From positions 1 through 37,053 of the forward strand of contig CAUJEC010000016.1 of NCBI GenBank assembly GCA_963169245.1: a stretch of DNA of 37,053 nt, in the 5' to 3' direction. Positions within the stretch are counted from its first letter, which is position 1, and each line of letters starts with the position of its first letter. The notes under the pieces were generated by a model. It was not told the DNA's origin, ran no database searches, and saw nothing but the letters and a program-made list of their open reading frames with translations. Source of the stretch: Actinomycetota bacterium (GTDB taxonomy: Bacteria; Actinomycetota; Acidimicrobiia; Acidimicrobiales; Microtrichaceae). Both the position numbers and the translations under genes were made by a program. Below are positions 7,967 through 16,453 of the stretch, one piece after another.

Positions 7967-10390
7967 TTGAGAGATGCAGGTTCCCTTGAGTTGCTGAACG
8001 GGCTGACCGCCGAGGAGGTCAAGGAGAAAGTCGTCTCCGGACGAGTCAATCACGTGCCGAGAGACCCGATGCCCTCGGTTGCGAGGATCATCGCCAACAA
8101 TGTCCTGACGCCCGTCAACCTGATTGTCGGCGTCATGCTCGTCCTCGTCGTCGTGGCAAATGGGATCGGTCCTGACATGCTCTTCGGAGGTGTGATCGTC
8201 TCGAACTCGGTGATCGGTGTCATCCAAGAACTCCGCGCTCGAGCAGCCCTGAACCGATTGAGCGTGTTGTCGGCACCCCACGTGTGGGTTCGCCGTGATG
8301 GAGTCGACTCGGAGATCGCTCTCGAGGAGATCGTTGAGGACGACATTCTCATTCTTGATACCGATGGTCAGGTCGTGGTCGATGGTGAGGTCGTCGATGC
8401 CTCCGGTCTCGAATTGAACGAGTCGCTTCTGACCGGAGAGTCCGATCCCGTTGGGAAGGACACGGGTGATCTGGTCCTGTCCGGGAGTTTCGTCTCAGCC
8501 GGGCGAGGCGCCTACAGGGCAACTCGGATCGGTGGCGACTCTTATGCGGCGACTCTGGCCAGCGAGGCTCGCAAGTTCTCGCTCGTCGATTCGGAACTTC
8601 GTCAGGGCGTCAATCAGATCCTCAAGACTCTCATGGCGATCATTCCTATCGTCGCTGTCCTCCTGCTCATCCGTCTCATGAGAACCGGGCAGGGATGGCA
8701 GGACGCGCTTTCGGGAGTGGTCGCCGCTTCGGTGGCCATGGTGCCCGACGGTCTGGTTCTGTTGACGAGCATCTCATTCATGGCGGGAGTTGTGACACTC
8801 GCGAAGCGGGGAGCGTTATTGCGTGAACTGGCAGCGGTGGAGCTGCTCGCTCGGGTGGACACGATCTGTCTGGACAAGACGGGGACGATCACCACAGGTC
8901 GAATGACGGTTGGGCGGATCGAGGTCATTGATCCTCCAGACACTTCGCCGATGACTGAGGCCGAAGTTCTCGCTGCGCTGGCCGCATTCGCGCACTCCGA
9001 CCCGAATCCAAACTCGACTCAGGGTGCGATCGCCGACGCGCTGATGGAATCTCCCGCTTGGGTAGTGGACGACACCGTCCCGTTCTCCTCGACCCGGAAG
9101 TGGTCAGCAGCATCGTTCCATGGAGCGCCGGCGGGATCACACGCGGCCACGTTCGTAGGCGCTCCCGAGATGCTGCTCGACGGGGTTGGAGGATCCGAGG
9201 ATCGTCGCGGACGGCTCGCCGGAGACGTGGCTGAGTTCGCGTCGCAGGGATATCGCGTACTTCTCTTCGCAACGGCCACATCGCTCGAAGGGGAGTCACT
9301 GCCACCGGATCTGACCCCGCGAGCGCTTGTCCTTCTGGAGGATGAGGTCAGGCCCGACTCCAGAGAGACCTTAGAATATTTTGCAGCGCAAGGAATTGGG
9401 CTCAAGGTCGTGTCTGGGGACAATCCGCTCACGGTCGCCGCCGTTGCGCGTCGTGCCGGAATCGTCGGCGCAACGGATCACCCCGTCGATGCCAGAACGC
9501 TTCCCTTCGACGACAGGGAACGACTCAGCGACGTGGTCGAGAACAATGCGGTCTTCGGTCGGGTGACCCCGAGGCAGAAGCGCGAGATGATGCAGTCCCT
9601 TCAGGCCCGGGGCCGCAAGGTGGCGATGACCGGCGATGGGGTCAACGACGTCCTCGCCCTCAAGGATGCCGACATGGGCATCGCCATGGGTGCCGGATCC
9701 AGCGCAAGCCGATCCGTCGCCGAGCTCGTACTGGTGGACAATCGATTCGATGTTCTGCCCGGCGTGCTTGCCGAAGGTCGCCGCGTCGTCAACAGCATCG
9801 AACGAGCCGCCAACCTGTTCGTCTACGGCACCGTCTATTCGTTCCTGATCTCGCTTGTCATAGCGCTGGCAGGAACGGAGTTTCCCTTCCTTCCACGACA
9901 TCTGACACTCGTCAGAACTCTGACCGTCGGACTCCCCGGCTTTGCTCTTGCGCTCGCCCCCGACTCGCGCGTCGCCAGACCGGGATTCGTCAAGCGGGTC
10001 ATCCGCTTCTGTGTTCCGGCCGGCGCCATTGCCGCAGTCGCGACTCTTGTGATTTGGTTCTACAGCAGGGATCGTGTCGAACTGATCGAGGCCCGTACAG
10101 CGTGCACCTATGTCCTGATGATCGTCGGTCTCGGCATCCTCTGGCGCCTTGCCGCGGCGCTGCCTCCATGGCGCTGGGTGCTTAAGGTCTCGATGGCGAC
10201 CCTGATGGCGCTCGCGTTGTTGATCCCGTTCTCACGCAGGTTCTTCGAGCTTCAGAGTCCACCGATGTCCATCTGGGTCGTGGTGTCGTTGGTGGGGATG
10301 GCCGGTTGGGTCCTGATTCGCTTCATTCCTGTGGGGGTTGATTCCGTCACGGTCGATTCCAATCCGGTCGACGACGGGCGGGCGAAATGA
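7967..10390 (+). CDS. P-type cation-transporting ATPase, CtpE-like
   Basis: LTGESDPV, CLDKTGTITTGRMTV, VAMTGDGVNDVLALKDADMGIAMGAGSSASRSVAELVLVDNRFDVLPGVLAEGRRV; GAGGAGGAG upstream of the TTG start. Confidence 0.9.
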   Translation: MRDAGSLELLNGLTAEEVKEKVVSGRVNHVPRDPMPSVARIIANNVLTPVNLIVGVMLVLVVVANGIGPDMLFGGVIVSNSVIGVIQELRARAALNRLSVLSAPHVWVRRDGVDSEIALEEIVEDDILILDTDGQVVVDGEVVDASGLELNESLLTGESDPVGKDTGDLVLSGSFVSAGRGAYRATRIGGDSYAATLASEARKFSLVDSELRQGVNQILKTLMAIIPIVAVLLLIRLMRTGQGWQDALSGVVAASVAMVPDGLVLLTSISFMAGVVTLAKRGALLRELAAVELLARVDTICLDKTGTITTGRMTVGRIEVIDPPDTSPMTEAEVLAALAAFAHSDPNPNSTQGAIADALMESPAWVVDDTVPFSSTRKWSAASFHGAPAGSHAATFVGAPEMLLDGVGGSEDRRGRLAGDVAEFASQGYRVLLFATATSLEGESLPPDLTPRALVLLEDEVRPDSRETLEYFAAQGIGLKVVSGDNPLTVAAVARRAGIVGATDHPVDARTLPFDDRERLSDVVENNAVFGRVTPRQKREMMQSLQARGRKVAMTGDGVNDVLALKDADMGIAMGAGSSASRSVAELVLVDNRFDVLPGVLAEGRRVVNSIERAANLFVYGTVYSFLISLVIALAGTEFPFLPRHLTLVRTLTVGLPGFALALAPDSRVARPGFVKRVIRFCVPAGAIAAVATLVIWFYSRDRVELIEARTACTYVLMIVGLGILWRLAAALPPWRWVLKVSMATLMALALLIPFSRRFFELQSPPMSIWVVVSLVGMAGWVLIRFIPVGVDSVTVDSNPVDDGRAK

Positions 10391-10580: not shown

Positions 10581-11645
10581 ATGACCTCCGCCGTCGACTG
10601 GGATCTGGCGGAGCAGGTCGCGGCCCGAATCGCCAAGGGCGATCCCTTCTCGCGCTCCTATCACCGAGAGGGGATGGAGTCGGACTTCGAGGAGTTCACG
10701 TCCCGAGCGCAGGGCTATGTGGAGGCCGAGATCGGTTTCTCGTCACTCTCGGGCAATGCCCGGGCACGCGTTGTCGATCGTCGGGACTGGGTTCGCGCAA
10801 ACCTGGCCAGCTACAACCGTCTGCTCAGACCTCTGCTGGACCGGTTTGAGGGCAAGGAAGGTCCCACGGCGGAACTCAGCTCGAAGATCGCTGCTGTGGA
10901 ACTCGGTTCGCTGCTCGGATGGATGTCATCGCGGGTGCTGGGTCAATATGACCTGTTGGTGCTCGAGGAAGAGGACCCCGATGAACAGGACATCGTCTAT
11001 TACGTTGGTCCCAACATCCTGAGTCTTGAGAAACGCCACTCGTTCCCACCGGACGAGTTCCGTTTGTGGGTCGCTCTTCACGAGGTGACCCACCGCACGC
11101 AGTTCACGGGTGTGCCGTGGCTTCGCCAGTACTTTCTCGACCAGGTCGGCGAGTTGATCACCGCTGCCGAGCCAGACCCGAAAAAGCTCTTCATCGCGGC
11201 CGGGCGGCTGGCCGAAGGGATCACGAAACGGACCAATCCCTTTGCCGAGGGTGGTGTGGCAGCACTGTTCGCAACCCCCGAGCAGAGACTGGCGATGGAC
11301 CGTGTCGCCGGTCTCATGAGTCTTCTCGAAGGTCATGGCGATGTGATCATGGACCGTGCCGCGCTCGATCAGGTCCCATCGGCACCACGATTCGGTCGGG
11401 TGCTTCGTGCTCGCCGCAAGGAGATGAACCTGGCGACGAAGCTCCTGCAGAGACTCATCGGACTCGAGGCCAAACTCGCGCAGTACGAACAGGGCGAACT
11501 GTTCATCGAGGCCGTCGAGAAGGTCGGCGGTCCTCAGTTGTTGAACCGTGCGTTCGAGAGCGCCGAGAACCTGCCGACGATCCATGAGATCAGGAACCCA
11601 GATCTGTGGCTTACGAGGATCGACTCGAAAGCCATCTCGATCTGA
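10581..11645 (+). CDS. DUF2342 zinc-dependent metalloprotease-like (zincin) protein
   Basis: LWVALHEVTHRTQFTGVPWLRQYF (HExxH-type motif) and overall resemblance to the DUF2342/F420-associated family. Confidence 0.88.
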   Translation: MTSAVDWDLAEQVAARIAKGDPFSRSYHREGMESDFEEFTSRAQGYVEAEIGFSSLSGNARARVVDRRDWVRANLASYNRLLRPLLDRFEGKEGPTAELSSKIAAVELGSLLGWMSSRVLGQYDLLVLEEEDPDEQDIVYYVGPNILSLEKRHSFPPDEFRLWVALHEVTHRTQFTGVPWLRQYFLDQVGELITAAEPDPKKLFIAAGRLAEGITKRTNPFAEGGVAALFATPEQRLAMDRVAGLMSLLEGHGDVIMDRAALDQVPSAPRFGRVLRARRKEMNLATKLLQRLIGLEAKLAQYEQGELFIEAVEKVGGPQLLNRAFESAENLPTIHEIRNPDLWLTRIDSKAISI

Positions 11646-11658
11646 CCGAGGCCGGTCC

Positions 11659-12612
11659 ATGCCCATGCCCATCTCCACGGCCGAGTCGACCCCGATCACC
11701 TCATCGGATCTGAAGGCTTCGAGGCTGGTCGGTGACCTTCTGAAGCGGTGCGCCTTTTCGGCGGCCGCCCGTCGAGTCGACCTTGCAGTCTCCGGCGGTG
11801 CGGATTCGTCAGCGCTTCTGATCCTTGCGGTGGCGGCTGGCCTCGAGGCCCACGCGTTCCATGTCGATCACGGGCTTCGGGCAGGTTCCGATCTGGAGGC
11901 GCGCCGCGTCGGGGAACTGGCGGGGAGGCTCGGAGCGCGGTTCACCTCTCTCACCGCTGCGGTGACAGATGGTCCGGACCTGGAGGCTCGAGCCAGGGAG
12001 GTCAGACACGGCGCGCTCCCAGAGGGTGTCCTGTTCGGCCACACCATGGATGACCTCGCCGAGACGGTTCTCCTTCGGATCATGCGTGGAACCGGACCTG
12101 GAGGGTTGGCGTCCATGCGCTATGACAGGCATCCGATCCTTGGGTTACGCCGAAGCGAGACTGTCGCTCTGTGTCGGGAGTTGTCCATCGCGGTGGTCGA
12201 CGACCCCTCCAATCTCGACCCTCGTTTCCGGCGCAACAGGGTTCGACACGAGGTCCTTCCGCTCCTCGGGGACGTCGCCGATCGTGATGTCACTCCTCTG
12301 ATCGCCAGGCTCGCGCATCAGTCCGCAGAGCAGGCCGATCTGATCGACGAATTGGCCAGAGACCTGGACGCGAGCGACGCCAGGGCCCTGGCCGCAACGC
12401 ACCGCGTGCTTGCGGCCGTGGCCATCCGGCATTGGTGGAGCGACTCGACGGGTGATCCCTACCCTCCTGATTCAGCAGCAATCGAGCGAATACTTGGCGT
12501 AGCACACGGATCTGCTGTGTCCTGTCAGGTCCACTCCGGTTGGGTGATCAGGCGCACTGGTCAGCGATTGAGGATCGAGCGTGACGACACTCCCGAGGGG
12601 ACCAGCAGGTGA
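11659..12612 (+). CDS. tilS: tRNA(Ile)-lysidine synthase
   Basis: VDLAVSGGADSSALLILA (PP-loop), AFHVDHGLRAGSDLEA, GHTMDDLAETVLLRIMRGTGPGGL, DPSNLDPRFRRNRVRHEVLP; start chosen downstream of the DUF2342 stop. Confidence 0.92.
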   Translation: MPMPISTAESTPITSSDLKASRLVGDLLKRCAFSAAARRVDLAVSGGADSSALLILAVAAGLEAHAFHVDHGLRAGSDLEARRVGELAGRLGARFTSLTAAVTDGPDLEARAREVRHGALPEGVLFGHTMDDLAETVLLRIMRGTGPGGLASMRYDRHPILGLRRSETVALCRELSIAVVDDPSNLDPRFRRNRVRHEVLPLLGDVADRDVTPLIARLAHQSAEQADLIDELARDLDASDARALAATHRVLAAVAIRHWWSDSTGDPYPPDSAAIERILGVAHGSAVSCQVHSGWVIRRTGQRLRIERDDTPEGTSR

Positions 12613-12646
12613 CCATCAAGCGACACGGGACTAGGGTCAGACGCTG

Positions 12647-13222
12647 ATGAGTGGCACAGAGCACCCGATTCACCTCTCCGATGATCCTCGCATCGGCAAC
12701 ATCTTGTTGACCGAGGAACAACTCACTTCGCGAATAGCGGAACTGGGAGCGCAGATCACGGAGGACTACGCGGGCCGGAATCCTCTGCTCGTATGCGTTC
12801 TGCGTGGCGCCTATGCGTTCGCCACCGACCTCTGTTTCGCGATCAACCTCCCGATCGAACTCGACTTCATTGCGGTGTCCTCCTATGGGGCCACGACGCG
12901 CACATCGGGAGTCGTGAGACTCGTCAAGGATCTCGATGTGGACCTGACAGATCGTGACGTGATCCTGGTCGAGGACATTGTCGACACCGGACTCACTCTT
13001 CGATATCTGCGACGCAGTCTGGAGGCCCGCGGTCCCGCCAGTCTGGAGGTCTGCACACTGCTCGCCCGTGAGGCCGCCGACCTAGAGGGTCTGGGCGTTC
13101 GATACGTCGGTTTCACCATCGGCGGCGACTTCGTGGTGGGCTATGGCTTGGATGCGAACGAGAAGTACCGCAACCTCCGCTACCTGGCGGTCTTTGACTC
13201 CTCGGATACAGAAGTTCGCTGA
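12647..13222 (+). CDS. hpt: hypoxanthine phosphoribosyltransferase
   Basis: VCVLRGAYAFATDL, VSSYG, VILVEDIVDTGLTL, VVGYGLDANEKYRNLRYLAVF. Confidence 0.95.
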   Translation: MSGTEHPIHLSDDPRIGNILLTEEQLTSRIAELGAQITEDYAGRNPLLVCVLRGAYAFATDLCFAINLPIELDFIAVSSYGATTRTSGVVRLVKDLDVDLTDRDVILVEDIVDTGLTLRYLRRSLEARGPASLEVCTLLAREAADLEGLGVRYVGFTIGGDFVVGYGLDANEKYRNLRYLAVFDSSDTEVR

Positions 13223-13917: not shown

Positions 13918-14886
13918 ATGACCGACGGGGAGACCGAACCAGCAGGACCGAGCGGCGAACCTGCACGCAGGACGATCCGTGTCATGGGCGTCCTCAATGT
14001 CACCCCCGACTCGTTCTCCGATGGCGGACAGAACTTCGACCGTGACAGGGCAATCGCCCGGGGGCTCGAGATGGTCGCGGAGGGGGCCGATGTAATCGAT
14101 GTCGGTGGCGAGTCCACCCGCCCCGGCGCCGAACCGGTCGACCCCCACACCGAAGCGGCAAGGGTGATACCGGTGATCGAGCACCTCGCTGCTGCACGCG
14201 AGCAGCACGACGATGGCGAATCCGGACGCTTCCAGATCTCGATCGACACCCGGAACTCGGCGACTGCCCGACTGGCTGTCGCCGCGGGTGTCGATCTGAT
14301 CAACGACGTGAGCGCTTCGCTGTGGCACGTGGCAGCAGAATGCGGGGTCGGCTGGGTTGCGATGCACATGCTGGGCGATCCGCGCACGATGCAGAAGTCT
14401 CCCGTCTATGGCGATGTCGTGGACGAGGTACGGAGCTTTCTGGTCGACCGGGCCAGGGCAGCGCTCGAAGCGGGAGTGAGCGAGGTCTGGATCGATCCGG
14501 GAATCGGATTCGGCAAGACGACGCGCCACAACCTGGAACTGCTCGCCCGACTCGATGAACTCGTGTCGGAGGGGTTCCCAGTGTTGATCGGGACCAGTCG
14601 CAAGAGGTTTCTGGGAGAACTGACTGGACTCTCCGATGCCGCGGCAGACAAGAGAGCGCTGGCTGTCCGGAGGAACGCTGCCGGAGATGGATCGGGTCTC
14701 GATTCGGCCGATGCGCTCCACGGTCACGTCGCCCAGAGCGGTGTCCCCGTCACGGATCGGCTCGAGGCGTCGGTCGCGTCAGCCGTGTGGGCGATGAGCA
14801 AAGGTGCGACGATGGTACGAGTCCATGACGTCAGGGCGACTGCCGAGGCTGTCGCTGTGATTCAGGGAAGTATCCCCGAGCGCTGA
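13918..14886 (+). CDS. folP: dihydropteroate synthase
   Basis: RVMGVLNVTPDSFSDGG, DVGGESTRPGAEPV, ISIDTRNSATA, INDVSA, DPGIGFGKTTRHNLELL, GTSRKRFLG, RVHDV. Confidence 0.95.
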   Translation: MTDGETEPAGPSGEPARRTIRVMGVLNVTPDSFSDGGQNFDRDRAIARGLEMVAEGADVIDVGGESTRPGAEPVDPHTEAARVIPVIEHLAAAREQHDDGESGRFQISIDTRNSATARLAVAAGVDLINDVSASLWHVAAECGVGWVAMHMLGDPRTMQKSPVYGDVVDEVRSFLVDRARAALEAGVSEVWIDPGIGFGKTTRHNLELLARLDELVSEGFPVLIGTSRKRFLGELTGLSDAAADKRALAVRRNAAGDGSGLDSADALHGHVAQSGVPVTDRLEASVASAVWAMSKGATMVRVHDVRATAEAVAVIQGSIPER

Positions 14887-14932: not shown

Positions 14933-15535
14933 ATGGCAGGAAAAGGCAAGTGGGCGCAGGGTATCCAACCCCGCCATTTCAACTGGGTCATCAAGGACCA
15001 GTTGGCGGTCTGCGAACGTCCCGGAGGTTTCGGTGCCAATCACCGCAAGGTGCGACGGCAGGAGGAGATCATCTGGATCCGCGAACAGGGCTTCGACTTC
15101 GTCGTATCCCTGTCGGGTGGGCCCAACAATCTCCACAGCTACGACGAACTAGCCGTTCGCTGGAAGCACTGGCCGCTGCCCGCACCGGATGAGACTCCCC
15201 GTTATCTGAACCAGTCCTACAGCGAACTCCGTCGCCTGCTCACCGAACGACGCAAGCTCATCCTGCATCACGATGAACTCTCCGATCGGCTCACCGGGTT
15301 CCTTGCCGGTTATCTCGTGTGGAACTCGATGGTTCCCGAGATTCCCCGGGCAGTGTCGATGGTCGAACACATCGTCGGTCGACAGATGGGTACCGAAGGA
15401 CGCCAGATGGTCGTGGAGGCAGGGCGTCTCCTCGAAGCCCGCCGGATAGCTCAGGCAGCCGCAGCCGAGCAGATGATCACGTCTCCCCGCCCACCCGAAG
15501 GTGACGACGGCGACGACGACCTGACCGGCGAGTGA
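14933..15535 (+). CDS. tyrosine/dual-specificity phosphatase-fold protein, probably catalytically degenerate
   Basis: IREQGFDFVVSLSGGPNNLHSYDE followed by LILHHDELSDRLTGFLAGYLVW, which aligns with the HCxxxxxR(S/T)G loop but with His at the Cys position; lies between folP and folB. Confidence 0.65.
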   Translation: MAGKGKWAQGIQPRHFNWVIKDQLAVCERPGGFGANHRKVRRQEEIIWIREQGFDFVVSLSGGPNNLHSYDELAVRWKHWPLPAPDETPRYLNQSYSELRRLLTERRKLILHHDELSDRLTGFLAGYLVWNSMVPEIPRAVSMVEHIVGRQMGTEGRQMVVEAGRLLEARRIAQAAAAEQMITSPRPPEGDDGDDDLTGE

Positions 15536-15563
15536 GCCGTCCGTCGTGGTGGGCTCGGCGGAT

Positions 15564-15962
15564 ATGTCAGTGAACATGTCCGAGGACCTGAATAGTTCAG
15601 ACCGAATAATCCTGCGTGACCTGCGCCTCGCTGGAGTCGTCGGGGTGTTGCCCGAGGAGCGTGTACGCCCACAGCCGCTCAGTATCGACATCGAGATCCT
15701 CACCGACCTGACCCGGGCTGGGCTGAGTGATGACCTCGACGATTCGGTCGACTACGGAGCGCTGTGTGACCGGGTGGCCGACATGGTCCATGCAGGCGCA
15801 CCGCTTCTGCTCGAACGTCTGGCGCATCTGCTTGCAGACGACCTGCTCGCTGAGTTTCCCCTGATCGATGTGGTCGTGGTCGAGGTGCGCAAGCTGCGGC
15901 CTCCAGTTCCACATCAGTTGGGAACCTCCGGCGTGAGGATCGCCCGCAGAAGGAAAGCGTGA
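15564..15962 (+). CDS. folB: dihydroneopterin aldolase
   Basis: RIILRDLRLAGVVGVLPEERVRPQPLSIDIEI, DSVDYGALCDRVADMV, LLERLAHLLADDLL; the start could also be GTG 15546. Confidence 0.9.
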   Translation: MSVNMSEDLNSSDRIILRDLRLAGVVGVLPEERVRPQPLSIDIEILTDLTRAGLSDDLDDSVDYGALCDRVADMVHAGAPLLLERLAHLLADDLLAEFPLIDVVVVEVRKLRPPVPHQLGTSGVRIARRRKA

Positions 15963-16453
15963 GTCCCGCTCCCAGAGCCAGCGTTCGTCGCTGTTTCATC
16001 TCGATCGGGTCGAACCTGGGTGACAGGCTCCAGTATCTGCGTGACGCCGTTGAGATGCTTCCCGACGTCATCGCCGTCTCCCCAGTCTATGAGACCGATC
16101 CGGTAGGTGGTCCTGAGCAGGCAATGTTCCTGAACATCGTCGTCGAGTTGCGCACGGCCATCGCTCCGCTCGACCTACTCGGGATCTGTCACAGGATCGA
16201 GACTGCAGCAGACCGTGTGCGTGACATCCACTGGGGGCCACGCACCATCGATCTGGACATCATCTGGATCGATGGCGTCGAGATGGACACCGCGCGGCTG
16301 ACGGTCCCGCACCCCAGGTGGAAGGAGCGCCGGTTCGTGTTGGCGCCCCTGAGGGACCTGGACTCCTACCTGGTCAGCGACGACGACCTTGCTGCCGCCG
16401 ATGGGCGGGTCAGGCTTCTCGGCCCTCTGGATCAGCCAAGCTCGCCAATATGA
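15959..16453 (+). CDS. folK: 2-amino-4-hydroxy-6-hydroxymethyldihydropteridine pyrophosphokinase
   Basis: CFISIGSNLGDRLQYLRDAVEML, VSPVYETDPVGGPEQAMFLN, WGPRTIDLDIIW, VPHPRWKERRFVLAPL. Confidence 0.95.
   Translation: MSPAPRASVRRCFISIGSNLGDRLQYLRDAVEMLPDVIAVSPVYETDPVGGPEQAMFLNIVVELRTAIAPLDLLGICHRIETAADRVRDIHWGPRTIDLDIIWIDGVEMDTARLTVPHPRWKERRFVLAPLRDLDSYLVSDDDLAAADGRVRLLGPLDQPSSPI

Follow-up and report, generated by a model that had tools for sequence, protein, structure and literature searches.

Genomic location and predicted fold of X

The gene studied here, termed X, occupies positions 14,933–15,535 on the forward strand of the window, that is, the whole stretch of 37,053 nucleotides that was analysed. 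It begins with an ATG codon, is present in one copy per genome and encodes a 200-amino-acid protein, here assigned as a putative pseudophosphatase with the fold of dual-specificity phosphatases (DSPs). As originally predicted, X is located between folP (dihydropteroate synthase; 13,918–14,886, forward; PF00809, E = 4.5e-73), its ancestral upstream neighbour, and folB (dihydroneopterin aldolase; 15,585–15,962, forward; PF02152, E = 3.9e-30), its ancestral downstream neighbour, the start of which was set by eye, with a GTG at 15,546 also being possible. X starts 46 nt past the end of folP and ends before folB, which is followed by folK (HPPK; 15,959–16,453, forward; PF01288 match at G000:C16:15995-16363, E = 1.4e-38). 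Further upstream lies a tilS-like gene (11,689–12,612, forward), named from its sequence and with an approximate start, preceded by a Zincin_2 (PF10103) metallopeptidase-like gene (10,581–11,645) that keeps the same position upstream of tilS across most of the class.

No Pfam match to DSPc (PF00782) was detected in X, nor at X in a whole-genome search, and no NCBIfam DSPc match was obtained at E values up to 10; indeed, X reached the curated cut-off of no Pfam or NCBIfam family model. A match to Glyco_trans_4_4 (Pfam, E = 0.006, below cut-off) was discarded as fortuitous, since the fold differs. When X was compared with the PDB by phmmer, the single match below E = 0.9 was 25xa_A (E = 2.5e-4, residues 14–143), whose PDB title is ‘dual specificity protein phosphatase family protein’, and a profile built from 31 sequences recovered the same entry with E = 3.9e-7 (profile positions 15–149). 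An AlphaFold2 model of X, computed with 31 relatives, had a pLDDT of 90.1 and a pTM of 0.83. Foldseek searches of the PDB with this model gave 222 matches at E values up to 0.001, the best 50 of which were cysteine-phosphatase-fold entries; the leading ones were of the DSP type, with human DUSP23/VHZ (2img, E = 6.5e-8, TM 0.82 by target length) at the top and KAP and Cdc14 also among them. Neither AlphaFold2 nor Foldseek yielded a different fold, and X is thus modelled with confidence as a PTP/DSP-fold protein, in line with the original prediction.

The active-site loop of the X family

The original prediction had recognised the phosphatase loop within LILHHDELSDRLTGFLAGYL, read from the codon at 15,257, and its placement of the residues now numbered His113 (15,269–15,271) and Arg119 (15,287–15,289) was exact; His112 is at 15,266–15,268. 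The remodelled loop itself, HHDELSDRLTG, spans residues 112–122 (15,266–15,298, forward). For comparison, relatives were gathered at four taxonomic levels around the window's genome (family, order, class and phylum) and from a public collection of genomes. Over the match columns, 176 of the sequences were distinct, and 175 of them cover the loop; these sequences are related and hence not independent observations.

From the DSP signature HCxxGxxR(S/T)G, the first His alone survives in the X family (H112, 174/175), and G122 of the loop is found in 169 of 174 homologs. The position of the catalytic Cys, occupied by His113 in X, accommodates 14 different residues among the 175 homologs, most often Gly (48), Arg (29), Gln (26), Ala (22) and His (13), with Cys in 7. 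An intact CxxxxxR loop, with Cys113 together with Arg119, was present in none of the 175 distinct homologs. The loop Gly position is occupied by Leu, Val or Ile, the Ser/Thr position after the loop Arg by Leu, Val, Ile or Met in 170/175, and the loop Arg itself (Arg119) is retained in 116/175. By alignment to 25xa, the general-acid Asp corresponds to Ala84 (15,182–15,184, forward), where only 12 of 171 homologs carry Asp. The mean number of acidic residues in the loop is 2.9, and a single basic one is most common. On a tree of 171 rows, built without the loop, residue 113 underwent at least 57 changes and residue 119 at least 40.

The proposed exchange of Cys for His therefore held in part: His113 is present in the window's genome and the catalytic Cys is absent family-wide, but His is not a family trait (13/175), and the variability of position 113 ruled out a specific Cys-to-His replacement. 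Relative to active PTP/DSP phosphatases, X shares the fold and the loop Arg and lacks the Cys, the Ser/Thr and the general-acid Asp. Because Cys, general acid, loop Gly and Ser/Thr have been lost and the loop is acidic, we assign X as a pseudophosphatase, i.e., a protein with a phosphatase fold whose catalytic residues are lost across orthologs, which agrees with the original reading. Judged from these alignments, the pocket is inactivated and remodelled as a whole, rather than that of a His-for-Cys enzyme. Catalysis through other residues (H112, H37, E28, D118) may nevertheless occur.

Arg at position 113 and Arg at position 119 were never found together, and most of the 175 homologs have one of them: Arg119 was present in 0 of 29 sequences with Arg113 and in 116 of 146 without it (Fisher 5e-17, relatedness ignored). 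An Arg exchange between the two positions was, however, not significant after relatedness was considered, with only six changes of Arg113 on the tree and two independent supported pairs, so that the pattern is at most a hint that the loop Arg has relocated between positions 113 and 119.

Distribution and gene order

X was present in 29 of 33 genomes of the family, 233 of 248 of the order and 232 of 247 of the class (Acidimicrobiia), including 169 of the 174 near-complete Acidimicrobiia genomes, and gave a single match in nearly all genomes searched. Streamlined genomes of about 1 Mb (f65) also retain it. In the phylum sample outside Acidimicrobiia, matches came from one further group alone, designated f105. 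X is ancestral and near-universal in Acidimicrobiia.

Gene order was read in 67 wider regions, 62 of them planned around X or its place and at least 5 serving as controls lacking X. The usual order was Zincin_2–tilS–hpt–gap–folE–folP–X–folB–folK–DUF2520-like–panC–nadB, where tilS, hpt, folE, DUF2520, panC and nadB were named from sequence rather than by family search; the gap of about 2 kb between hpt and folE seen in many regions is probably ftsH. The folP–X–folB arrangement was found at 144 loci (a sample with repeated loci), and in most genomes X is the next gene 3´ of folP. In the Ilumatobacter group (f7), in f40 and in part of f18, X immediately follows tilS, and no folate gene was found within reach. 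Altogether, X adjoins tilS with folate genes out of reach at 36 loci (not all from distinct or unrelated genomes), and several further loci show X next to hpt; one genome (G248) has the arrangement tilS–hpt–X–DUF2520–panC. Conversely, in f48 and f39, tilS lies on the other strand and X remains with the folate genes. Position thus identifies no partner, because X stays now with tilS and now with the folate genes when these separate.

Some individual loci deserve mention. At locus L280 (G354, f71), no stop codon separates folP from X, and the two share an open frame that begins near base 8,380 and encodes 492 amino acids (FolP, residues 50–314; X, residues 325–482). As X may instead start at an internal GTG preceded by a GA-rich stretch, a fusion of folP and X is not proven. 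This was the only in-frame folP–X case in 314 reading frames of X, and gene fusion as a general feature of X was rejected. Upstream of tilS–X at locus L237 (G397, 11,775–12,654), genes resembling those for an ECF sigma factor and a zinc-type anti-sigma factor were observed, and a similar sigma gene lies upstream at locus L174.

An invariant basic segment precedes the loop

The most conserved segment of X is ERPGGFGANHRKVRRQEE (residues 28–45; 15,014–15,067, forward), which in the AlphaFold2 model forms the predicted β2–α1 loop and the start of α1. In other DSP-fold proteins, the equivalent loop and helix border the pocket. Conservation is centred on ERPGGxGxNHRxVRRQEExxW, with G31 and R38 present in 174/174 homologs, R41 and E45 in 173/174, R42 in 170/174 and H37 in 168/174; R38 and R41 showed no change on the 171-row tree. 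The invariant part of the protein as a whole (P13, W18, E28, G31–G32, H37–R38, R41–R42, E44–E45, W48 and Y70) precedes the loop.

We also estimated selection by comparing dN/dS values, which are simple pairwise estimates. In each of the 10 genome pairs that allowed both calculations, X had a lower value than FolP (e.g., 0.061 vs. 0.205), and it was likewise below TilS in each of the 3 calculable pairs (e.g., 0.007 vs. 0.087); one further pair was saturated. Purifying selection on X is therefore strong, and stronger than that on FolP. Together with the conservation described above, these values ruled out that X is a local mutation or a decaying gene.

The explanation we favour, and regard as moderately probable, is that X is a class-wide, catalytically dead DSP-fold pseudophosphatase whose function depends on binding instead of Cys-based hydrolysis. 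As such, it could serve as an adaptor or bind a ligand, and its recognition face would comprise the invariant ERPGGxGxNHRxVRRQEExxW segment and the rebuilt acidic loop, with its invariant His112 and usually one Arg. The combination of an invariant basic segment with an acidic loop suggests a conserved recognition face, which may contact a protein, a nucleic acid or a small anion, and X is probably an unstudied non-enzymatic core protein.

The main alternative, to which we assign a clearly smaller chance, is that X is an enzyme with a new, non-Cys active site on the DSP fold, formed for example by His, Arg and Glu residues such as H112, H37, R38 and E28. The invariant polar residues E28, H37, R38, R41, E45 and H112 exceed what a pure scaffold would need, and the stronger conservation of X relative to FolP points in the same direction. 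However, the same invariant segment would fit a protein or nucleic-acid interface equally well, and the best 50 of the 222 Foldseek matches included no solved Cys-less enzyme with a DSP fold. It likewise appears unlikely that the pocket has been rebuilt around His112, His37, Arg38, Arg41 and Glu28 to form a new site for catalysis or ligand binding, with an activity undescribed for this fold.

X and folate synthesis are dissociated

The folate-linked role that was originally suggested from the position of X was not supported. HPPK (PF01288) was not found in 8 X-bearing genomes among the 54 tested. In seven of them (G240, G397, G432, G095, G213, G189 and G248), neither HPPK nor DHPS was detectable, where folate-gene absence is defined by searches for these two proteins and unrelated replacements are possible. 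Six of the seven are at least 93% complete, G397 being a single 5.0-Mb contig, and X lies beside tilS or hpt in these genomes. In the eighth (G275), folP is beside X near a contig end. The reverse situation was found in Acidimicrobiaceae (f32), which include Acidimicrobium ferrooxidans: HPPK was present in 8/8 genomes and X in 0/8, and in the loci read, folP was followed by folB within about 100 bases in four of five and by folK in the fifth. One genome of another group (G081, f50) similarly has contiguous folate genes without X. In Ilumatobacter coccineum, X adjoins tilS, at a distance of about 2.4 Mb from folB–folK. Near folB–folK in this genome (locus L329, G163 C1, about 1.88 Mb), the other strand carries a divergent FolP-like match (about 29% identity), and the I. 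coccineum arrangement suggests that the folate genes of this lineage were replaced or moved.

A folate-pathway pseudophosphatase that binds a phosphorylated pterin, or activates or scaffolds FolP/FolB, would fit the ancestral and commonest position of X between folP and folB and the single open frame shared with folP at L280; moreover, the dephosphorylation of DHNTP is a gap in most bacteria (PMC1971073). Against this, X and the folate genes dissociate both ways, being kept in the seven genomes without HPPK/DHPS, missing from f32 and G081, and separated in I. coccineum, and X is therefore probably not a folate enzyme; a folate role as the main function, deduced from operon position, was rejected on these grounds. 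The acidic character of the canonical loop also makes it an unlikely binding site for a phosphorylated pterin. All things considered, the folate-pathway reading seems improbable, and the place of X between folP and folB is probably inherited gene order and does not in itself point to a folate function. Since X is 3´ of folP in most genomes and shares one frame with it, an accessory folate-linked role may remain in folate-making lineages. Equally doubtful is a joint function of X with TilS (the tRNA-Ile lysidine synthetase) or with Hpt, as the X–tilS loci lacking folate genes and the hpt–X loci could imply, because X stays with the folate genes in f48 and f39, where tilS is on the other strand, no tilS match lies within about 9 kb of the X relatives in the f105 loci read, and staying in place may reflect mere inertia.

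Significance and comparison with known systems

Pseudophosphatases are known mainly from eukaryotes, and no bacterial pseudophosphatase was retrieved from the papers searched. Almost all genomes of an entire bacterial class carry X, which is more conserved than the surrounding enzyme genes and is covered by no family model. A. ferrooxidans served as the source for a published list of proteins specific to the class (PMC5962788); as this species lacks X, the protein could not appear there. X also provides a clean case of operon position misleading functional assignment, as it is kept without folate genes and lost by folate makers. If the new-site reading were true, a class-wide core protein would carry an activity of the DSP fold not described so far.

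In the searches made, relatives of X came from actinobacterial lineages only. The f105 sister family (L126, L127 and L300–L319), from another class of the phylum, was recovered by profile search in 25 of 149 genomes of that class, all but one of them f105. Its model has a predicted DSP fold (pLDDT 86) with Foldseek matches to DSPs. Like X, this family keeps the ERPGxxGxxHR motif; unlike X, it mostly has an HCDRxxEW loop, in which Cys is often present and Trp occupies the Arg position. In the six loci read, neither tilS nor the folate genes of the window had a match, and glycosyltransferase-like genes were found nearby.

The closest solved sequence relative, the bacterial DSP 25xa, shares with X a WVI..LA....PGG start but has an intact loop, HCRAGYGRTG, in place of HHDELSDRLTG. 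With the atypical dual-specificity phosphatases DUSP23/VHZ, Cdc14 and KAP, X has fold and topology in common; it differs from them in lacking the Cys, the loop Gly, the Ser/Thr and the general-acid Asp, in its acidic loop and in the added basic ERPGGxGxNHRxVRRQEE segment. In eukaryotic pseudophosphatases such as STYX, the catalytic Cys is replaced, the fold is retained and the protein has a binding role; in the described examples, the loop is mostly preserved apart from one or two substitutions. X would resemble them in the first three respects, but in contrast to the STYX type, it has lost nearly the whole signature.
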